From Polynucleobacter sp. (GTDB lineage Bacteria > Pseudomonadota > Gammaproteobacteria > Burkholderiales > Burkholderiaceae), in assembly GCA_030696845.1 (NCBI GenBank), contig JAUYRJ010000024.1, positions 1-42,345 on the forward strand: 42,345 bases of DNA. Direction: 5' to 3'. A model generated the notes under the pieces. The model was not told the origin of the DNA, made no database searches, and saw only the letters and a list, made by a program, of their open reading frames with translations. Below are positions 2,007 to 31,970 of this stretch, one piece after another. Position 1 is the first letter of the stretch. Each line of letters starts with the position of its first letter. A program made the position numbers and the translations under genes.

Positions 2007-2792
2007 ATGAATGGAAACTGGATCCTCGAGCGCGTTAACGAAACGCGCTCCACAAACGACGACCTCATGTCCCGGTGGCGATCCGGGCAATTAATAGACC
2101 CAGTCGCTAGACTAGCTAAATACCAGACCCACGGCAAAGGGCGGGCAGGTCGCGTATGGCATGCAGCCCCAAATGACTCATTATCTTTTTCATTGGCCTT
2201 TCCATTTAATAAGACCCCATCAGAGCTTAGCGGTTTAAGCCTGCTAGCAGGGCTGGCCGTAATTGATGGATTATGTGCCGCACTCAATACCAATGAGCCA
2301 ATGCTGCATGAATGCGGCCTTCGACTTAAGTGGCCAAATGACCTAATGATCGGTAACGCCAAATTCGGCGGCATCCTAATCGAAGGAGGTCAAGCGACCC
2401 CCCAAGAGCCCAGCTGGATGGTCGTTGGAGTTGGTATCAACTTACGATCCACCCAATTACAAACCATCAATACCGAGCCAATAGCATCGATAAACCAATT
2501 CCTTTCGCCTGGTGACAAATTACCAGATCCCGAGTGGATTTGGCTAAAACTGATTGATGCGTTTGAGCGTGCATTAATCGAATTTGACGAGCGCGGTTTT
2601 GCTCCTTTCGTGGAACGTTGGTCGCACTGGGATGCATATCAAGGAAAGGCTGTATTCACCCAGACCTCTGCGCAAAACGGCATTGAGGGTATCGCATCGG
2701 GCATTAACGCTTCCGGCGCCTATTTGATTCAAACGCCGAGTGAATTGCTCACTGTTCATGCTGGTGATGTGTCATTGAGAGAAAAACGATGA
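2007..2792 (+). CDS. birA: biotin--[acetyl-CoA-carboxylase] ligase
   Basis: This 261-residue enzyme makes biotinyl-AMP and transfers biotin to the carrier protein of acetyl-CoA carboxylase. Visible motifs are the biotin/AMP loop GKGRAGR (43-49, usual form GRGRRGR), KWPNDL (108-113), KFGGIL (119-124) and VGVGINL. The N-terminal winged-helix repressor domain of E. coli BirA is absent, because the catalytic domain begins almost at residue 1. It should therefore be a catalytic-only ligase with no operator-binding role. Its stop overlaps the coaX start by 4 nt (ATGA), so the two are translationally coupled, a common betaproteobacterial pair. Confidence 0.95.
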   Translation: MNGNWILERVNETRSTNDDLMSRWRSGQLIDPVARLAKYQTHGKGRAGRVWHAAPNDSLSFSLAFPFNKTPSELSGLSLLAGLAVIDGLCAALNTNEPMLHECGLRLKWPNDLMIGNAKFGGILIEGGQATPQEPSWMVVGVGINLRSTQLQTINTEPIASINQFLSPGDKLPDPEWIWLKLIDAFERALIEFDERGFAPFVERWSHWDAYQGKAVFTQTSAQNGIEGIASGINASGAYLIQTPSELLTVHAGDVSLREKR

Positions 2793-3634
2793 GTCTTTAT
2801 GTGTTATTTGATATTGGCAATACACGCCTTAAATGGGCCGTTGTCGAATCCCACCAAAACCCTATCGACCGCAATAAAAAATTATGGCTGTATTCCGGGG
2901 CGATTGATACTAAGCTCCTGCATTCACCTGAGCATAGTGCGGAATTAGCCCATTACATTTTGCAAACCGTCCCCAAACCCGATGCGATTGGCGTGTGCTG
3001 CGTTGCTGCTGAGGAATGCATTACCAATCTCAGGCATCTCCTCTCACAGTGGAGCGATGTGCAGTGGTTACGGCTGATGGGCGACTCCCCCTTTTCTGAG
3101 CTCCGATCCTTATACGAAAATCCCGCACAGCTCGGCGCCGATCGCTGGGCCGGAGTCATCGCCGCACGCACCCTGTCCACCGCCAATAGCCTCATTGTGA
3201 ATGCTGGTACGGCAAGCACCCTCGACTTTCTTGGGGCTAACGCGGTACACCACGGAGGCTGGATCATCCCTGGGCTGGGCTTAATGCAATCCAGCCTGAG
3301 CAGCAATACTGCAAGGCTGCCGGCCACCTCACAGACCGAAGCCATTAATGGCTTCGGTCTATCTACGGATGCCGCTATTTATAAGGGATGTTTAGCGGCA
3401 CAAATCGGTGCAATTCAAAGTGCTTTGCACACCGCACTTGAAATGCGCCAACCCGTTGATCGGATCTGGATAGATGGCGGCAATGCCAAAAACCTAGCTG
3501 CCGAACTCAAACAAAATAATCTGTTTACTGCTATCTCTATTGAACCCATCAATGGATTGGTGCTGCGCGGACTATGGGCATGGCTTCTAAAAGAAGTGCG
3601 ACAGCTTACCCACGAATACGGCCAAGCAGACTAG
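2789..3634 (+). CDS. coaX: type III pantothenate kinase
   Basis: A 281-residue ASKHA-fold kinase that phosphorylates pantothenate in the first step of coenzyme A synthesis. Type III marks are the N-terminal FDIGNTRLKW (catalytic Asp8), GADRW (116-120), NAGTASTLDF (138-147), GGWIIPGLGLM and the late WIDGGNAKNL. It is coupled to birA by a 4-nt overlap. The 3' end overlaps the convergent rfaE2 by 29 nt (3606-3634). No type I kinase (coaA) is visible here, so this is presumably the cell's pantothenate kinase, although the rest of the genome is not seen. Confidence 0.95.
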   Translation: MSLYVLFDIGNTRLKWAVVESHQNPIDRNKKLWLYSGAIDTKLLHSPEHSAELAHYILQTVPKPDAIGVCCVAAEECITNLRHLLSQWSDVQWLRLMGDSPFSELRSLYENPAQLGADRWAGVIAARTLSTANSLIVNAGTASTLDFLGANAVHHGGWIIPGLGLMQSSLSSNTARLPATSQTEAINGFGLSTDAAIYKGCLAAQIGAIQSALHTALEMRQPVDRIWIDGGNAKNLAAELKQNNLFTAISIEPINGLVLRGLWAWLLKEVRQLTHEYGQAD

Positions 3635-22093: not shown

Positions 22094-25000
22094 TTAGGCT
22101 TGCTTAAATTTCTTGGCGTGGTGGTCTGCGCCAATAAAGAGATACATTGCAGGCACCACAAAAAGAGTAAACAAGGTTCCAATCGACAGGCCGGTGAAAA
22201 TCACAATGCCCATCGATTGGCGTCCTGCCGCTCCAGCCCCAGAGGCGATTACCAAGGGCACTACACCCAATACCATAGCAGCGGTTGTCATCAAGATCGG
22301 GCGCAAACGAACGCTACTAGCCTCAACGATAGCATCGAGCTTACTGCGCCCCGCCGCCTGAAGCTCATTAGCAAACTCCACAATCAAAATACCGTGTTTA
22401 CTAATTAAGCCCATCAGGGTCACAAGCCCCACCTGGGTATATACGTTTAGCGTAGTAAATCCTAAATTGATAAAGATTAAAGCTCCAAATAAAGCCAGCG
22501 GCACCGACACCAGAATCACAATGGGATCGCGGAAACTTTCAAACTGGGCAGCAAGAACCAAGAAAACAATCAAGATGGCGAAGAACATGGTAACTAAAAA
22601 GCCGCCAGACTCTGCCATAAATTGACGCGATGGGCCCGCGTAATCAATGGAGTACCCATTAGGAGCAACCTCTTTAAGGGATTGTCCAATAAATTTCAAT
22701 ACTTCTTCCTGCGAAACAAAAGGCGTACTGACGCCAATGATGGTAGCGGAATTAAGTTGCTGAAAGTGATTAATCGACTGCGGAACCACACGTTGCTTGA
22801 TGCTAGCAATGGTGCGCGCTTGAATCATGGCGCCACTGGGTGTGCGAATGTAGTAATCTAAAATTTGATCAGGATTAAGACGATCCACTTGTTTAACTTG
22901 TGGAATCACTCGATATGAACGCCCCGCAACCGAGAAATAATTGACAAAGCCTCCGCCCAATGCGGCTGATAAGGCATTGCCTACATCGCGCTGCGTCATC
23001 CCTAAGGCGGCTACTTTTTCTCGATCGATTTCCAATACATTCTGCGGCTTATCAATCTTTAGGTCGCTATCGACAAAGAAGAACATGCCACTCTTGCGGG
23101 CTTTATCTAGCACCGCTTGTGAGACCTCATTGAGATTTTCGTATGGCTCAGTGGTATTAATAACTACCTGAACAGGCAGGCCTTGTGCGCCTGGTAAGGC
23201 AGGGAATTGGAATGCGGCGACGCGAACGCCAGCAATGCTATTCCACTTGTTTTGCATATCCTGCTGAAAACTACTTGCGCTACGACTGCGCTCATCCCAG
23301 TCTTTCATGAGAACACCACCAAAACTACTGGTTGGACTCGTGATTTGAAACATCTGTAAATACTCGGGCTCTGCTGCGGCAATCTGTTGAATTTGATCTG
23401 CATAAGTCTGCATCTGATTCACCGTGGCATTTGGCGGCCCAGAAGCCTGCATCAACACAATACCTTGATCTTCTGTTGGCGCTAACTCCGAATGGGCTGT
23501 TGCGTATAAATATGCAACTCCGCCAAGCAATAACACCCCCATCACAATAATGACCTGCCAAGTACTGAGCAAGTCGCGCAATATGATTTGATACCGATGA
23601 TGTACCTTTTCAAAAATAGCATCAATCTTCTGTACGAAAGGCGATGCCTCCTGTCCCTCCGTGAAGATGCGCGAACACATCATCGGTGATAAGGTTAGCG
23701 CAACCACACCAGATACGGCGACGGCACTGGCCAAGGTAAATGCGAATTCCGTAAAAAGGGCTCCTGTTAAGCCGCCCTGAAATCCAATCGGAATATAAAC
23801 CGCAATCAGAACAACGGTCATTGCCAGGATGGGATTGCCTAATTCTCGCGCAGCGATTAAGGCTGCCTCTAACGGAGATTTTCCTTCCTTCATATGGCGA
23901 TCTACGTTTTCCACCACAATAATCGCATCGTCTACCACAAGGCCTATTGCTAGCACAAGCGCTAACAAAGTCAGCAGGTTAATTGAATAACCTAGCACCT
24001 GCATCAAAAAGAAGGCGCCAATCAAGGATAGTGGCATCGCGATGACGGGCACCAGAACCGCTCGAAAACTTCCTAAAAATAAATAAATAACAACGGTTAC
24101 GATGAGCAAAGCCTCTAACAATGTCGCAACTACTTCCTCAATTGAGGTATTAATAAACTTGGTAGAGTCATACACAACCTTGCCCGTAAGCCCTGTTGGT
24201 AGCTGTCTTTGTATGTCAGGCAGCACTGCGCGAATGCGCTCTGCCACGTCGAGCAAGTTGGCATCCGGCGCCACTTTAATCCCGATGAATACCGATTGCT
24301 TGCCACTAAACGCCACATTAGTGTTGTAGTCATCCGAGCCCAAACTGACCGTAGCGACCTGATCTAAGTAAACAATGTCAGCGCCATTACGCTTAACAAC
24401 TAATTTGCGAAACTCTTCTAAGGTGTGGAGGTCTGTTCCCGCAACGAGATCAACCGCAACCATTTCGCCCTTAGTGCTTCCAACTGCGGATAAGTAGTTA
24501 TTAGCAGCGAGGGCGTTATACACATCATCGGCACCAATACCCAAGCCAGCCATCCGATCACGATCAAGCCATGCCCGCAGAGCAAATTTTCTACCACCTA
24601 AAATTTCCGCATTTTGAACACCGCTAACAGAGTCGAGCTTGGGCTTCACCACACGCAGTAAATAATCTGTTGTGCTGTTGTTTGGTATTACATCACTGTA
24701 AAAGCCTAAATACATAGCGGCAGTTGATTGCCCTACTTGCACAGTTAATACGGGTTGCTGCGCTTGTGGCGGCAGCTGATTGCGCACCGAACTGATCTGA
24801 GTATTAATTTGAGTCAGCGCGCGATTTGCATCGTAATTTAATTGCAGGGTAGCAACGATGGTTGATATGCCGCTCACGCTAGTTGAGGAGAGGTAATCAA
24901 TTCCCTGCGCTTGTGCGATGGCCGCCTCTAAGGGCTGAGTAATAAATCCAGCAATGGTTTCCGGATCCGCTCCAAAGTAGGCAGTAGTAATTGTGACAAT

Positions 25001-25129
25001 CGCATTTTGGGTTTGCGGATATTGGTTTACCGGCAGTGAACCTACGGCCTTGAGTCCGAAAACCAAGATGAGCGCACTGACAACCAGTGATAAAACAGGT
25101 CTGCGTATAAATAGATCAGTCCACTTCAT
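22094..25129 (-). CDS. RND multidrug efflux pump, inner-membrane permease
   Basis: A 1011-residue HAE1-type RND transporter that uses the proton gradient to export drugs or lipophilic compounds from the periplasm. The first helix follows FIRRPV (8-13). The porter domain has GADPETIAGFITQPLE, and the proton-relay aspartates Asp400-Asp401 lie in GLVVDDAIIVVENVDRHM. The second half repeats the fold (ASSVRLRPILMTTAAMVLG). The length is slightly short of AcrB (1049). It is the third gene of an OMF-adaptor-pump operon, 22 nt after the adaptor. The exact substrates cannot be told from sequence. Confidence 0.95.
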   Translation of the reverse strand: MKWTDLFIRRPVLSLVVSALILVFGLKAVGSLPVNQYPQTQNAIVTITTAYFGADPETIAGFITQPLEAAIAQAQGIDYLSSTSVSGISTIVATLQLNYDANRALTQINTQISSVRNQLPPQAQQPVLTVQVGQSTAAMYLGFYSDVIPNNSTTDYLLRVVKPKLDSVSGVQNAEILGGRKFALRAWLDRDRMAGLGIGADDVYNALAANNYLSAVGSTKGEMVAVDLVAGTDLHTLEEFRKLVVKRNGADIVYLDQVATVSLGSDDYNTNVAFSGKQSVFIGIKVAPDANLLDVAERIRAVLPDIQRQLPTGLTGKVVYDSTKFINTSIEEVVATLLEALLIVTVVIYLFLGSFRAVLVPVIAMPLSLIGAFFLMQVLGYSINLLTLLALVLAIGLVVDDAIIVVENVDRHMKEGKSPLEAALIAARELGNPILAMTVVLIAVYIPIGFQGGLTGALFTEFAFTLASAVAVSGVVALTLSPMMCSRIFTEGQEASPFVQKIDAIFEKVHHRYQIILRDLLSTWQVIIVMGVLLLGGVAYLYATAHSELAPTEDQGIVLMQASGPPNATVNQMQTYADQIQQIAAAEPEYLQMFQITSPTSSFGGVLMKDWDERSRSASSFQQDMQNKWNSIAGVRVAAFQFPALPGAQGLPVQVVINTTEPYENLNEVSQAVLDKARKSGMFFFVDSDLKIDKPQNVLEIDREKVAALGMTQRDVGNALSAALGGGFVNYFSVAGRSYRVIPQVKQVDRLNPDQILDYYIRTPSGAMIQARTIASIKQRVVPQSINHFQQLNSATIIGVSTPFVSQEEVLKFIGQSLKEVAPNGYSIDYAGPSRQFMAESGGFLVTMFFAILIVFLVLAAQFESFRDPIVILVSVPLALFGALIFINLGFTTLNVYTQVGLVTLMGLISKHGILIVEFANELQAAGRSKLDAIVEASSVRLRPILMTTAAMVLGVVPLVIASGAGAAGRQSMGIVIFTGLSIGTLFTLFVVPAMYLFIGADHHAKKFKQA

Positions 25130-25151: not shown

Positions 25152-26471
25152 CTATTGTTCTTGCGGTTTTGGATTTGGATTATTAGCAGGCTGAACACTA
25201 TTATTGATGATGAGCGGCGTGCCATTCTTTAACTTAAGCTGTCCACTGGTCACAACTAATGCGCCAGGCTCAATCCCCTTGATAATGGCAACCTGGTCAC
25301 CGCGCGTTAGCCCTGTAGTGACAAATATCTGTTCGGCCTCCAGCACTGGTTTACCCTTCTTATCAAGCCGATCCGTTTTGCGGGCAATAAACACTGTGCT
25401 TCCATAGGGGTTATAGGTGACCGCAGTTTGCGGTAGCGTCAGATACTTCACCCGCTCGCCTAAATTAATATTGACGTTTGCAAACATACCCGGCAATACT
25501 TTTTTATCCGGATTGCTCACTACTGCTTCAATTTGCATATTCCGTGTATTGAGTTCTACTTTAGGGCTGACTGCTGTAATCTTGCCTTTGAATGTCGCAT
25601 CCTTAAAAGCATCTGTTGTCATTTCAATTTCTTGTCCAACCTGAATCATGCCAGCCGTACCTTGAGGCAGGGTGAAGTCCACGAAAATAGGATCTAAGGT
25701 TTGGAGTGTCAGTAGCTTATCCCCGGGATTAACATACTGACCTGGGTTAATAGTCACAATTCCAACGCGTCCGCTAAATGGTGCTTTGAGGTTTTTCTTT
25801 GCTACTAAAGCGGCCTGTTGCTCTACTTGTGCAGCCTTGGATTTAGCATCCGCCGCGCTGGTATCAAATACATTTTTACTAATGGCCTGAATTGCCAACT
25901 GCTGCTTATCCCGCTCATTAATAATCTTCGCAAGATCAGCCATCGCCTTTAATGAGTTGAGTTGCGCCACGTCCGATACATCATTGAGCTTAATTAACAA
26001 AGCGCCTTCTTGAACATCCATACCCGACTGGACTGGAACGTTTTGAACTAAACCGCCTAACTCGGTACTCAGATCAACGCCACGGAACGCGCGAATGTTG
26101 CCAACACTATTGAGCGTAGGCTGCCACTCATCCTCTTCCACAACCATTGCAGAAACTGTAGCTGGCGGCAAGCCCATGCTCGAGATAAAGTACTTAATCA
26201 TGAATGTCTTTAGCTGATTAAAGCCAAAGATCAATCCTAATAACAGCAAAACAACTATCAGCATGACAGTCATACGGCGGCGTAGCGGAGTCATCGCCAT
26301 TAACTTGGCATAGGACTTTGTACCCTTAAACCGCTCACGCGGACGTGCCGTGTTACCAATTCGCTCTAGGATGGATTTAAACCATTGCCATGTCCCGTTT
26401 AATTTTTCCATGACCTTCCATTCTTCGGCTTTGATCTTGAGCTTGAGGTAAAGATTCTCAAGAGGCTTCAT
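25152..26471 (-). CDS. RND efflux periplasmic adaptor (membrane fusion protein)
   Basis: A 439-residue HlyD/AcrA-family adaptor that links pump and outer-membrane channel. After the single anchor helix (about 69-86, MLIVVLLLLGLIFGF) come the barrel-sandwich half-motifs (SGMDVQEGALLIKLND; LKAPFSGRVGIVTINPGQYV), an alpha-hairpin and the beta-barrel. Unusually, about 65 charged and amphipathic residues precede the anchor, instead of a lipoprotein signal. The upstream ATG is kept because AGGA lies 8 nt before it and it overlaps the OMF stop (ATGA). Met59/Met61 are weaker alternatives without a clear ribosome-binding site. Confidence 0.92.
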   Translation of the reverse strand: MKPLENLYLKLKIKAEEWKVMEKLNGTWQWFKSILERIGNTARPRERFKGTKSYAKLMAMTPLRRRMTVMLIVVLLLLGLIFGFNQLKTFMIKYFISSMGLPPATVSAMVVEEDEWQPTLNSVGNIRAFRGVDLSTELGGLVQNVPVQSGMDVQEGALLIKLNDVSDVAQLNSLKAMADLAKIINERDKQQLAIQAISKNVFDTSAADAKSKAAQVEQQAALVAKKNLKAPFSGRVGIVTINPGQYVNPGDKLLTLQTLDPIFVDFTLPQGTAGMIQVGQEIEMTTDAFKDATFKGKITAVSPKVELNTRNMQIEAVVSNPDKKVLPGMFANVNINLGERVKYLTLPQTAVTYNPYGSTVFIARKTDRLDKKGKPVLEAEQIFVTTGLTRGDQVAIIKGIEPGALVVTSGQLKLKNGTPLIINNSVQPANNPNPKPQEQ

Positions 26472-28009
26472 TGTTCATTCCTCGCCATACTTCCTGGTTG
26501 ATATGCAGGTCCTTCTCGATTCCACCAACCGCCGCCTAAAGCGGCGAAGAGTGCTGCCGTATCGGCAAACCGCACTGCTTGCGCCTGTACTGATTTCACT
26601 TTGGCTTGCTGATATAAGTTTTGGTAATACAAAACAGCCAAGTAACTGCTTGTGCCTAACTTATATTGCTCTTGAACCAAATCCAATGTTTCTTTTGAAT
26701 AACGCTCCGCATCGGACGCGGCCTTCAATGACTGCGCACCTGTTTCTAATGCACGCAATGCGTCTGCCACTTCTTGGAATGCATTCAATACGGTTGCTTG
26801 ATACTGAAAGACGGCTTGCTCATAAGTCGCCATAGCACCTCTGCGCTGCGCCAATAACTGGCCGCCCTGAAATAAGGGCTGGAACAGTCCACCAGCCACA
26901 GACCAAATGGTAGCCGTAGGGCCAAATAAGGCATTGGATGTTAATGCTACCGAACCTATGCTGGCGCTTAAATTTAGTTGCGGCAATAGATTGGCGGTAG
27001 CTACTCCGACCAAGGCATTCGTTGATTTTAATAATGCTTCGGCAGCCCTTATATCAGGGCGCTGACGTACCAAACTAGAAGGTAATGATAGTGGGAGCTT
27101 TTCTGGCAAATGCAAGCTAGATAGGTCAAACTCAGCAACTTGGGCATTACTTGGAAACTCACCGGTGTAGACTGCGAGCTGATTTCGCGCAAATGCCAAG
27201 TTACGCTCATAGGCCAGCAGATCAACTTGTGAGTTGGATACGAGGGTTTGCTGTGAGGTCAAATCAACTCGCGAAACCGTACCAATCTTGAGTTGGCGCT
27301 CCGTGACATCGGCAAGATCTTGTTGGGCTTTTAATATCTCTTTAGTAGCTGCGTACTGCGCACGCAAAGCCGCCTCTCGTACGGCAGACGTGACGATATT
27401 TGCAGTCAAGGCTAAATAGGCCCCCTCCAGCTGAAATTGCTGAATCTCAGCTTGTGCACGCGCACTCTCAACCGTCCTTCTTGCTGCTCCAAATACATCC
27501 AGTCGATAGCCCAGATTGACTGATGTGTTGTAAATGCTATAGATATTTTGACCGGGTATTCCAAACGTCGCCAATGATTGTTGCTGCCTTCCAGTGTTTG
27601 CATTCAAGCCAATCGTTGGAAAATACTGCCCGCCAATTTGTGCATTGACATTCTCTTGCGCAACCCTCAATGCCGCATCAGCCGCAGCTAGGTTGGGATT
27701 CTGCTCTAAGGCTTTTTTAATTAATAACTCTAGCTGGGGTGATTTAAATAAGGTCCACCACTGAGCAGGTATATCTGCATCCTGAATAATTTGCTGTTCT
27801 GTACCCCCGGGAACATTGGGTGCGGTAGCTAATTTCTCGCTAATCGGCTTTTCTGTAAATCGCACTGCTGCTGGACTGTTAGGCTGCTTAAAGTCTGGTC
27901 CGACAGCGCATCCACCAAAAACGGCTGCAAGCGTTACCAGCATTCCACGTAGAACGTGATTAGTACGCGGATGTATTCGGGATTGCAGATCTGGATTTAT
28001 TGCTCTCAT
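26468..28009 (-). CDS. RND efflux outer-membrane factor (NodT/OprM family lipoprotein)
   Basis: A 513-residue trimeric outer-membrane channel of the NodT/OprM family. The N-terminus carries a lipobox (VFGGCAVGPDF, Cys near 34) after a long n-region. Two repeated outer-membrane efflux domains follow, with QNPNLAAADAALRVAQENV and, in the second, RQRPDIRAAEALLKSTNA and GTSSYLAVL. It is the first gene of the operon. Its start has AAGGA at ideal spacing, but that site is inside a perfect stem-loop (28013-28040). The gene order OMF-adaptor-pump is like the metal-type CzcCBA operons, not the usual adaptor-pump-OMF of drug pumps. Confidence 0.94.
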   Translation of the reverse strand: MRAINPDLQSRIHPRTNHVLRGMLVTLAAVFGGCAVGPDFKQPNSPAAVRFTEKPISEKLATAPNVPGGTEQQIIQDADIPAQWWTLFKSPQLELLIKKALEQNPNLAAADAALRVAQENVNAQIGGQYFPTIGLNANTGRQQQSLATFGIPGQNIYSIYNTSVNLGYRLDVFGAARRTVESARAQAEIQQFQLEGAYLALTANIVTSAVREAALRAQYAATKEILKAQQDLADVTERQLKIGTVSRVDLTSQQTLVSNSQVDLLAYERNLAFARNQLAVYTGEFPSNAQVAEFDLSSLHLPEKLPLSLPSSLVRQRPDIRAAEALLKSTNALVGVATANLLPQLNLSASIGSVALTSNALFGPTATIWSVAGGLFQPLFQGGQLLAQRRGAMATYEQAVFQYQATVLNAFQEVADALRALETGAQSLKAASDAERYSKETLDLVQEQYKLGTSSYLAVLYYQNLYQQAKVKSVQAQAVRFADTAALFAALGGGWWNREGPAYQPGSMARNEQ

Positions 28010-28012
28010 ATC

Positions 28013-28040
28013 AGTCCTTATTTGAACACAAATAAGGACT
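28013..28040 (-). promoter_or_regulatory. perfect 12-bp stem-loop enclosing the efflux operon ribosome-binding site
   Basis: On the minus strand AGTCCTTATTTG, loop TGTT, CAAATAAGGACT is a perfect 12-bp hairpin ending 3 nt before the outer-membrane-factor ATG (28009). The Shine-Dalgarno AAGGA lies in the 3' arm, 5 nt from the ATG, so folding would hide it. The stem is followed by no T tract, so it is not a terminator. Either translational control or a repressor operator with dyad symmetry would explain it. Confidence 0.7.
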
Positions 28041-28097
28041 TTCTTCCTATATCTATATGCTTTGAAAGGAATGCATAACGATTGACTTTAACAAAGA

Positions 28098-28109
28098 TTT
28101 GCTAGCAAA
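28098..28109. promoter_or_regulatory. 12-bp perfect palindrome upstream of efflux operon
   Basis: TTTGCTAGCAAA is a perfect palindrome about 90 nt upstream of the outer-membrane-factor start. It would suit binding of a dimeric repressor, but no regulator gene is adjacent and no clear -35/-10 pair could be placed around it. Confidence 0.3.
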
Positions 28110-28122
28110 GCCGTGGGCGAAT

Positions 28123-28269
28123 CTATGAGATTTCGATGATTTTTAATGTTGGCTTCGTATAAGTGGTGAGCATTTTCACTGGCACGATTTCCTTTATTTT
28201 AATAAAACCTCTTCGGATCCCTGCTTGAGTTGATATATATTGTGCTACCTCAGAAAATAAGGCTTTCAT
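28123..28269 (-). CDS. candidate small ORF, 48 residues, unrecognised
   Basis: An ATG at 28269 opens 48 codons ending in TAG (28123) in the leader region of the efflux operon. The product would start MKALFSEVAQYISTQ and end KPTLKIIEIS. It is basic with alternating hydrophobic residues and no signal peptide. Another open stretch upstream ends in a TGA that overlaps this ATG (ATGA), as coupled genes do. Against it, the ribosome-binding site is weak, codons such as ATA and AGA are used, and a frame this long is expected by chance in AT-rich DNA. It resembles no family I know. Confidence 0.25.
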   Translation of the reverse strand: MKALFSEVAQYISTQAGIRRGFIKIKEIVPVKMLTTYTKPTLKIIEIS

Positions 28270-28524
28270 AGCCTATTTCTTTTTTCTTCTCGTCGGAATG
28301 GATTGTAGTTGCTGCGATTAGATACTTTTATCCCTCTCGCCTTCCATTTGCTTTCTTGCTTGGCGCATCAATAAAACGATTGATTTTCATACTGAATCAT
28401 TATTGCTGCCATCATTAATCATTCCGTACGAAAGATAAAAAAATGATCAATTTTTAAAAAATACAAAGGGGAGTCTTTTATTTCACGTATTTCATCCCAG
28501 ACCCACCCTCAGTAAATCAAAGCA

Positions 28525-29610
28525 CTAGCTCAAAAAAAGGTGGTTGCCATCCAATGTTTTATTCGCATTAAGCGCTTCCATGGAAACAAAAGAAGGCGTC
28601 TTTAAGCTGCTCATCTGGTTCATATCAAAAACCGAAAAATTCAAACTATCAATGGTGCGAATATAGAAATGGTTTTGGTTTAAGTCCCGCAAAACTGTCC
28701 AGCTAGTGACTTCTGACGCAGATTCTTCAGCGGCACCAAGCATGCTGCGTTCGCCAGCAGGCATGTCGCTTGAGACGTCCACAGAAATTCCTGTTGGTCG
28801 ATCAAAATTATTCATCACGTGACTCAGAGTCAAGATAGCCTCTTGCGGTGTCTTGCCCTTGTATACAAATTGAGAATAATAGGCAGCCCTCACAAAGCGT
28901 CCAGGAGAGGTTGCTGTGCTGGGGAGGTTTGCCATATTGGCTCCGCCGTCAAACGCCTTCACTTCCAACTTGTTAAATTGGGCTGTATTTTTATCTACAT
29001 TCGTTAAAAATGTGTAATTGCCCATATTTTGAAGATGCCAAGGGAAGGGTGGGTTATTAGTCAAGACACCGACTTCATTGTCATACACCTCAGTTTTGCC
29101 TGACGACCACTCGATCACGATGCCAGCGCCAGTACGATCCCAAAGCGCGAAATGAATTGGCGCTGGCTCGGCCCCAAGCAAAGGAATAACGGGCAACCAA
29201 AATTGAACATCCTTGTTCTCTATTGCCTGCTTAACTTCAGCCACCGTCTTAAAGTTTCCGAGCGCCCAAACCCCAAGATCCGTTACGGAGATTACCTCAC
29301 TATCCGTTACTCCTGAAACATCCGGCGAAGAATTACCACCTAGGGAATTGGTTGAGATGGTCAGACCATACTCATTCATCGCCTCGTGTAAGGTCCCTTG
29401 TTTTGCCTGACTGATGCCACCTACTAATACGCCAAAAATAGCGTACTTCGTGTTGAAAGTCACCCCCTGCTTACCGGCGGGTGTAAACGATTCCATTCGG
29501 GTGCCCACTGGAAAGTACGCCATTTGATTGGGAGATGGTCCAACAAATTCTAATGTTCTACCCGTATAAATCAGGCCATTTGCATCGTAATAAGCTAAGA
29601 CAGTGCACAT
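28525..29610 (-). CDS. linear amide C-N hydrolase, choloylglycine hydrolase/penicillin V acylase family
   Basis: A 361-residue Ntn-hydrolase. After Met removal the N-terminal nucleophile would be Cys2 (MCTVLAYY). The family arginine is Arg18 in GRTLEF, and the position that is Asp in many bile-salt hydrolases is Glu21 here. Other matches are TNNPPFPWHLQNMGNY and PGRFVRAAYYSQF. No signal peptide precedes Cys2, so it should be cytosolic. Known members cleave bile salts, penicillin V, N-acyl-homoserine lactones or linear amides. The start has GGAG 5 nt upstream. It stands alone between two gaps of about 0.5 kb, which suggests an acquired gene. Confidence 0.88.
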   Translation of the reverse strand: MCTVLAYYDANGLIYTGRTLEFVGPSPNQMAYFPVGTRMESFTPAGKQGVTFNTKYAIFGVLVGGISQAKQGTLHEAMNEYGLTISTNSLGGNSSPDVSGVTDSEVISVTDLGVWALGNFKTVAEVKQAIENKDVQFWLPVIPLLGAEPAPIHFALWDRTGAGIVIEWSSGKTEVYDNEVGVLTNNPPFPWHLQNMGNYTFLTNVDKNTAQFNKLEVKAFDGGANMANLPSTATSPGRFVRAAYYSQFVYKGKTPQEAILTLSHVMNNFDRPTGISVDVSSDMPAGERSMLGAAEESASEVTSWTVLRDLNQNHFYIRTIDSLNFSVFDMNQMSSLKTPSFVSMEALNANKTLDGNHLFLS

Positions 29611-30137: not shown

Positions 30138-31970
30138 CTACTCCACCGTAACGCTTTTGGCTAAATTTCTGGGCTTATCAACATCGGTTCCACGTGCACA
30201 GGCCGTGTGATATGCCAACAGTTGCAAGGGTACGACATGAAGAATCGGGGATAGATCACCGTAATGCTCTGGTAGCCGAATGACAGCTATGCCCTCACTA
30301 CTCACTATTTCAGTATCAAGATCAGCAAATACGTATAGCCTTCCACCGCGCGCTTTGACCTCTTGCATATTGGACTTAAGTTTTTCCAGCAAGATGTCGT
30401 TTGGCGCCACCGTTACTACGGGCATCTTATCGGTGACAAGCGCCAAGGGACCGTGCTTTAACTCTCCAGCGGGATAGGCTTCTGCGTGAATGTAGGAAAT
30501 TTCCTTAAGTTTTAGCGCGCCCTCAAGAGCGATGGGGTAATGCAATCCGCGCCCTAAGAAAAGCGCATTCTCACATTTTGCAAACACATCACTCCAAGCG
30601 ATGATTTGTGGCTCTAGAGCCAAAACTGAGTTCAATGCCTTGGGTAAATGCCGAAGCGCGTTGAGCTGTTGTTTTTCCTCCTTGGCATCAACACGACCTT
30701 GCCGTTTCGCAACGGACATAGTCAACAAATACAAAGCGAGTAATTGCGTCGTAAATGCCTTAGTTGAAGCAACCCCGATCTCGGTACCCGCCTTAGTTAA
30801 GAAATGCCAATCCGTTTCGCGAACCATCGCGCTGCTGGCTACATTGCAGATGGCAAGCGTCAGCAAATGACCCAAACCTTTAGCATGACGTAAAGCAGCC
30901 AAGGTATCGGCCGTTTCACCCGACTGAGATACAACGACAACCAGTGCCTTGGGATTAGGTACAGTAGTGCGGTAGCGATATTCACTAGCGATCTCAACTT
31001 GTGTCGCTATACCAGCAATACTTTCCAACCAATATTTGGCCACACACGCAGAGTAGTAGCTTGTGCCACAAGCCAAAATTAAAATCTGATCAAATTGCTG
31101 CCATGTGACTGGATCCGCATTAAATAGATTTGGTCCAAATTGCGTAATATTTGCAAGTGTGTCGGCAACCGCTCGTGGTTGCTCAAAAATTTCTTTTTGC
31201 ATGTAGTGCTGATAGGGGCCAAGGTCTACTGAGTCTGCCTGCGCAGGCATCGGCCTTTGCTCACGCTGAATCGCTGTCCCAGCACAATCCAGTATTTCAA
31301 TATGATCTGCTTTTAGAACAGCAACATCGCCTTCTTCTAAGTAGATCATGGAACTTGCGCGGCCCGCAAGCGCGAGCGCATCCGAAGCCAAGAAATTTTC
31401 ATTCTCGCCTAGAGCAACAACCAGCGGTGACCCCACACGGGCGCCAACTAGGGTGTCGGGGCAGTCTTGGGCAATTACCCCAATCGCGTACGCACCGTGC
31501 AGTCTTGGCAATACCGACTTAACGGCAGCTACTAAATTACGCGGACTACTCGCAATATAGGCTTGATGAATCAAGTGGGCAATCACCTCTGTGTCTGTCT
31601 CGGAATCGAATACATAACCAGAAGACATGAGTTCTGTCCTCAAGGTTTCATAATTCTCAATAATGCCGTTATGAACCACGGCAATTAACTGATTAGAGAT
31701 ATGGGGGTGCGCATTTTGCGTATCCGGCTTGCCATGCGTTGCCCAGCGTGTATGGGCAACTCCTAATGTGCCATGAAAATGATTACCTTGTTCAGCCAAC
31801 TCCGAAACCCGCGCGGTGGTGCGCGCGCGCTCGATCTCGTGCTTTGCATCAGCGCCATTAATAACCGCAAACCCGCAAGAGTCATACCCGCGGTATTCAA
31901 GGCGACGCAGCCCTTCAATTAAAACAGGAACAATATTCTTACTTGATGCCGCACCTACGATTCCGCACAT
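30138..31970 (-). CDS. glmS: glutamine--fructose-6-phosphate aminotransferase (isomerizing)
   Basis: A 610-residue enzyme that makes glucosamine 6-phosphate, the first step to UDP-GlcNAc for peptidoglycan and LPS. The N-terminal glutaminase begins MCGIVGA (nucleophile Cys2), with [16 protein letters not shown] and [11 protein letters not shown]. Two SIS sugar-isomerase domains follow ([40 protein letters not shown]) with the C-terminal [12 protein letters not shown]. The length is standard. The start overlaps the glmU stop by 1 nt (TAATG). No glmS ribozyme is possible because the genes abut. Confidence 0.97.

Follow-up and report, generated by a model that had tools for sequence, protein, structure and literature searches.

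The stretch of DNA analysed here (42,345 nucleotides, called the window below) comes from a Polynucleobacter genome of 1.95 Mb and carries on its minus strand an efflux operon of three genes, the second of which overlaps the end of the first (Table 1). On the 3' side the operon is met by two convergent genes, one glutathione S-transferase-like and the other flavin-reductase-like, while a glmS-like gene and a choloylglycine-hydrolase-family gene precede it in the same orientation. Of the two, the choloylglycine-hydrolase-family gene is the nearer to the pump, from which a gap of 515 bp separates it. Among 89 related rows, by contrast, 60 have a GlmS-like C-terminus shortly before the pump, ending no more than 420 nt upstream of the codon aligned with residue 34 of its protein; in the remaining 29 no GlmS end was recognised upstream. 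The original prediction had stated that no regulator gene flanks the operon, and Pfam analysis of the eight neighbouring open reading frames agrees with it: seven belong to non-regulator families and one, of 98 amino acids, matches no family.

Table 1. Position of the efflux operon, its leader elements and the upstream genes in the window
Feature	Position	Strand	Basis or remark
5' arm of the stem, AGTCCTTATTTG	28029..28040	minus	sequence and repeat search; 12 nt
Loop, TGTT	28025..28028	minus	4 nt
3' arm of the stem, CAAATAAGGACT	28013..28024	minus	12 nt; 100% complementary to the 5' arm
Shine-Dalgarno sequence, TAAGGA	28015..28020	minus	all within the 3' arm; 5 nt from ATG
Core element, TGTGTTCAAATA	28019..28030	minus	leader comparison; genus-conserved before the pump operon
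Outer-membrane factor (NodT-type efflux outer membrane subunit)	26468..28009	minus	first gene of the operon; 513 aa
RND periplasmic adaptor subunit	25152..26471	minus	overlaps the end of the outer-membrane-factor gene
RND permease subunit	22094..25129	minus	best-scoring NCBIfam models describe multidrug RND permeases; curated cut-offs are not reached
Choloylglycine-hydrolase-family gene	28525-29610	minus, same as pump	upstream; Pfam scan
glmS-like gene	30138-31970	minus, same as pump	upstream; SIS and amidotransferase domains

The leader of the first gene reads, on the minus strand, AGTCCTTATTTG-TGTT-CAAATAAGGACT-GAT-ATG, with the start codon at 28009-28007, so that the inverted repeat of 12/12 pairs around a four-nucleotide loop, ending 3 nt before ATG, stands exactly as first described. 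The AAGGA assigned to its 3' arm was also found there, and with the preceding T it makes a six-nucleotide match to the anti-Shine-Dalgarno sequence. The choice of the start codon is supported by the nearest relatives, since ATG and TAAGG(A/G) keep identical spacing in 7/7 leaders of this clade. Perfect stems of 12 bp with loops of 3-8 nt occurred on average 0.025 times per dinucleotide-shuffled window (n=40), while the real window has two; the dyad is thus unlikely to be a product of chance, as had been claimed, yet it is not the only such stem. The second one, at 3333-3360, is a perfect loopless palindrome of 14 bp (AGACCGAAGCCATT/AATGGCTTCGGTCT), longer than the pump-leader dyad and located inside the type III pantothenate kinase gene (2789-3634, plus strand).

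As RNA, the 81-nt leader is predicted to fold with the 12-bp stem at -19.3 kcal/mol (z -2.9; 2 of 200 shuffles were equally good), and the 34-nt stem segment taken separately gives -15.5 kcal/mol (z -6.5). When 35 likely open reading frames of the window were picked and the 14 with a recognisable ribosome-binding site were ranked by its openness, the pump site proved to be the most closed, with an unpaired probability of 0.00 and the next value at 0.12. The ribosome site therefore lies within a stable predicted leader stem, which is the mark of Shine-Dalgarno-sequestering leaders. An intrinsic terminator on the operon strand was considered and rejected, since the minus-strand stem is followed by GATATGAG with no U run; a terminator-like score at the dyad was obtained only for the plus strand, where no reading frame of at least 80 aa ends close upstream. 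A search of the window between 27700 and 28700, together with nine further loci, against Rfam yielded no family match at E up to 1.

Modelling at 20 °C gave the Shine-Dalgarno sequence an unpaired probability of 0.00 as long as the modelled transcript began no later than the first base of the 5' arm, and about 0.5 once the 5' end had passed the arm. Of the switch proposed originally, either an RNA element or an operator, this part is upheld by the model: any transcript containing the entire 5' arm would have its ribosome site shut. Its particular form as a thermosensor, whose stem melts with rising temperature, agrees with the pairing of the Shine-Dalgarno sequence modelled at low temperature, but the stem is perfect, without mismatches, and the modelled unpaired fraction of the site is 0-3% at all temperatures between 5 and 75 °C, for which reason this form was rejected. 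In eight other modelled leaders the openness of the site shifted by no more than 0.06 between 5 and 45 °C. AAGGA pairs with UCCUU and not with the four U that serve as the pairing partner in the fourU class, as described in PMC11182007. We regard temperature sensing as scarcely credible here. Since the modelled site remains shut over the whole range from 5 to 75 °C, something must open the stem or bypass it.

Related leaders were collected as 91 rows with at least 65% identity, taken from 61 genomes (30 loci kept) and from a genome collection (the best 80 of 110); the same-genus loci L029 and L030 (53%) and loci outside the genus fell below this cut-off and were left out. The rows comprised 80 distinct leaders with the element described below, eight duplicates, which were dropped, and three leaders (L007, L047 and L028) missed by the pattern, which had been set by eye and allowed variation at four positions. 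The 80 leaders with the element fall into a nearest clade of seven (six distinct sequences), the larger clades A and B with 66, and a most distant clade of seven.

Within the nearest clade the window is the only case of a perfect stem. The other six leaders keep 8-10 of 12 standard pairs, the same C.A mismatch being common to all six, and their 34-nt stem segments have z values from -0.5 to -3.2. Across the six distinct sequences five pairs are invariant, one is broken in 5/6 and another in 4/6. Covariation of the arms, which the original prediction had expected in close relatives, amounts to one compensated pair (C-G to U-A) among 12; it was equalled by 87 of 500 shuffles and is not significant. 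Judged by these alignments, the result comes close to the lack of covariation that the prediction had itself named as counting against it. When longer leader stretches are folded, five of the six nearest relatives favour a structure other than the dyad stem, with the ribosome site still mostly paired (0.20-0.22 unpaired). The full stem, with up to three mismatches allowed, occurred nowhere apart from the window's own copy in the 41 genus genomes searched, and a repeat family was discarded on these grounds.

A different impression arises when the window is compared with arms of the L034 type. The 5' arm differs from them at 4 of 12 bases and the 3' arm at 2, and every difference leaves perfect pairs. 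In a simulation random placement of four changes in the 5' arm gave perfect pairing with p = 6e-5, a value that is post hoc, assumes one ancestor (of the L034 type) and holds the 3' arm as observed. Such orderly differences provide moderate evidence that pairing itself may have been under selection in the window lineage.

The conserved feature of the leader is the centre of the dyad and not its arms, which the earlier reading had missed. Of 83 distinct leaders, 82 have a TRTGTTCAAAT-like 11-mer directly ahead of the pump; among these, L007 and L047, with C at position 8, were included manually, and L028 is the only leader of the 83 that lacks it. Variation is confined to positions 2 (G/A), 5 (T/G), 7 (C/T/A) and 8 (A/T/C), and the other seven are invariant (n=82). 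The 11-mer stays with the pump mostly regardless of what lies upstream, being present in 28 of the 29 leaders in which no GlmS end was recognised. As the four bases 5' of the core exist in 16 forms among 80 leaders, conservation of the core is independent of pairing. On the preferred reading the genus keeps it for a reason that acts at the level of sequence, possibly as a part of a promoter. A literature search found no paper on the pump leader or on Polynucleobacter transcript starts.

Outside the pump the core is not enriched. Its exact form TRTGTTCAAATA has a single copy in the window genome, that of the dyad; in seven relatives it has eight copies, with the pump site in 7/7 and one extra copy in one relative, and the reversed control gave 0 and 3 copies, respectively. 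The looser form TRTGTTYAAATA, present in 31 of 41 genus genomes, has 46 copies in all and its reversed control 47, and the idea of a regulon marked by this core was abandoned, as its copy number is that expected by chance. Thus it is the location before the pump that appears remarkable, while about one copy per genome is the chance level. For the extended pattern TTGAC-N13-TRTGNNCAAAW, with one mismatch allowed, a perfect site at the pump was detected in 5/7 genomes and no site at the pump in the window genome and G010; away from the pump one-mismatch sites numbered 13, with 14 for the control.

In the larger clades A and B the element is accompanied by upstream motifs at rigid distances: TTGA[CT] lies 73 nt upstream of it in 47/66 leaders and AATCA 33 nt upstream in 58/66. 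A second TRTGNNCAAA site is present 54-56 nt upstream in 49/66 leaders of these clades, and the arrangement TTGAC-N13-TRTG in 53/66. Some 10-35 nt before the element, and downstream of the TTGAC motif, 19 of 80 leaders (L013 and others; 12 in a stricter form) contain a GC-rich hairpin AATCAGG..CCTGATT, the left half of which is conserved more widely while the right half is not.

A dimeric regulator, be it a repressor or an activator, whose gene lies elsewhere might bind the TTTG-N4-CAAA centre of the dyad and block the operon. For such an operator one can cite the perfection of the dyad, a second 12-bp palindrome of the same type (TTTGCTAGCAAA) at 28098-28109, about 60-70 nt upstream of the dyad, and the second TRTGNNCAAA site of the larger clades, but at 54-56 nt this site is missing from 7/7 leaders of the nearest clade and from 7/7 distant ones. 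The half-sites are not conserved alike either: the right half is kept while the left one, represented by the 16 forms mentioned above, varies, which speaks against the palindromic operator of the TetR/MarR type put forward in the original prediction. No regulator was seen among the eight neighbouring reading frames, although for proteins of this type linkage is common but not obligatory. Altogether an operator seems quite unlikely.

The dyad may instead act chiefly at the DNA level as a promoter element, with TRTGTTCAAAT serving as an extended -10 region (TRTGn plus TCAAAT), a transcription start within the 3' arm or beyond it and a symmetry that is a by-product, in which case the RNA hairpin would hardly ever form. 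The extended -10 consensus is TRTGnTATAAT, and the seven positions invariant in 82 leaders are precisely those that agree with it; the rigid upstream spacings are of the kind expected from protein-DNA geometry, and persistence of the element with the pump where no GlmS end is recognised upstream points in the same direction. However, sigma-70 prefers A at -11, and this strict form was not found: the 82 leaders share TRTGnT..AAT, with C at -11 in 74 of them. A start 7 nt downstream of the element would, moreover, remove the conserved and well-placed TAAGG(A/G) of the window clade, a promoter scan of 27900-28700 returned no minus-strand match, and TTGAC-N13-TRTG, where it occurs upstream, offers a better -35/-10 arrangement that would leave the element within the RNA. 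We consider the promoter a possible but rather doubtful explanation. If the element is only a promoter, the result is an ordinary one, which still defines where the operon is read.

The same core can be read as a minimal frame, RTG-TTC-AAA-TAA, and translational attenuation would then follow if a ribosome on it opened the stem or re-initiated at the ATG 8 nt further on. Only A and G occur as the first base of RTG, and TTC predominates as codon 2; a stop appears within eight codons in 77/80 leaders, directly after three codons in 54, whereas in the two alternative frames no stop interrupts the stretch in 50/80 and 58/80 leaders, respectively. In the window the TAA stop of this frame overlaps the Shine-Dalgarno sequence. 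The frame has, however, hardly any ribosome site of its own, since AGG or GGA lies 4-13 nt before RTG in only 10/80 leaders and in 0/7 of the window clade, and the T preceding RTG is invariant without any need for it in a reading frame. Nor do the stops at codons 4 and 7 replace each other: with all 80 leaders pooled, the codon 7 stop is present in 41/55 leaders with the codon 4 stop and in 21/25 without it. Attenuation of this kind is therefore very unlikely.

Potential for hairpin formation recurs across most of the genus. In the larger clades the element is usually followed by a hairpin distinct from that of the window, CAAATA...AGAGGA/AAAGGA-TATTTG, with the ribosome-site-like AGAGGA or AAAGGA in its 3' arm; this purine run is 15 nt from ATG, a distance greater than a usual ribosome site allows. 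The outer pairs CAAATA/TATTTG are intact in 95% of cells over 63 leaders and in 33-60% when slid. Stretches of 53 nt containing the hairpin have a mean z of -1.4, with 32/66 below -1.64, whereas the control stretch upstream of it gave -0.2 and 5/66, counts that are not independent as the leaders are related. A home-made tree-based covariation test on 63 of 65 leaders (L050 and L085 were dropped as hard to align) revealed no column pair that beats the null (best E 4.2), and changes in TATTTG mostly disrupt pairs without compensation. In the seven leaders of the most distant clade there was neither an excess of folding (mean z -0.1) nor a Shine-Dalgarno run. Conservation of the core, as far as can be judged from these comparisons, does not hinge on pairing.

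Seen in this way, the leader might be a genus-wide and so far undescribed riboregulator of Polynucleobacter with two hairpins, composed of an AAAUCA..UUAC hairpin, an invariant URUGUUCAAAU-like linker and a ribosome-site hairpin at fixed spacings, which would have collapsed to one perfect lock in the window lineage. We hold this to be unlikely; if true, it would amount to a pump-specific switch without a linked regulator. Striking in L078, L058, L040 and L082 when these leaders are taken singly, long-range or kissing pairing of UUAC in the first hairpin with GUAA or GUAG in the second was tried and rejected: own versus swapped partners gave z 4.4, an unrelated stretch 4.6, values ranged from -3.5 to +4.6 and a reversed control went as high as 6.5.

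The likeliest role of the dyad, to which we assign a probability of roughly 0.45, is that of a cis-acting translational lock on transcripts starting upstream of it. We infer that mRNA begun upstream of 28040, either a long pump transcript or read-through, would fold into the 12-bp stem and close TAAGGA, so that the outer-membrane-factor gene would be poorly translated unless the stem were opened or bypassed, and perhaps also the overlapping adaptor gene. Transcripts beginning inside the repeat and devoid of the 5' arm could provide such a bypass, whereas read-through from upstream would be silenced; in that case the conserved centre would act as a promoter. The perfect stem would then be a lineage-specific tightening around the pump element TRTGTTCAAAT. 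The position of the 5' end of the pump transcript decides between the lock and the promoter. Linked repressors are the usual view of RND pump control; here no linked regulator is seen and a leader element is kept throughout a genus of freshwater bacteria, which suggests that the pump is controlled in cis, and the variety of natural stems, from perfect to broken, eases testing. A hairpin hiding a ribosome site is of a known kind, and more interest attaches to the element in its centre that the genus keeps.

Among candidate cis-regulatory RNAs there is one named for the genus, the Polynucleobacter-1 motif RF01718, listed in a table of PMC2864571; the pump leader, in contrast, has no Rfam counterpart in the interval and loci searched. 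RNA thermometers of the fourU and ROSE classes likewise have a paired Shine-Dalgarno sequence, but the pump stem differs from them in having no mismatches, no four-U partner, no modelled melting in the physiological range and no Rfam match. The translational attenuators of drug-resistance genes, ermC and cat-86, offer another likeness, a tiny frame beside a hairpin that hides the ribosome site, though in the pump leaders this frame is mostly without a ribosome site of its own. The general class of Shine-Dalgarno-sequestering cis hairpins may be compared as well: unlike them the pump stem has no known trigger, is perfect in one genome only and is described by its sequence and a folding model, but, as in them, the stem holds the ribosome site in its 3' arm beside the start codon. 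Inverted repeats also shield transposase genes of the IS10/IS50 type from outside transcription. The pump dyad belongs to a chromosomal efflux operon at which no transposon is seen, and a start inside its repeat is putative, but the two share the same logic, in that long transcripts would form a silent hairpin while short ones starting within the repeat would not.
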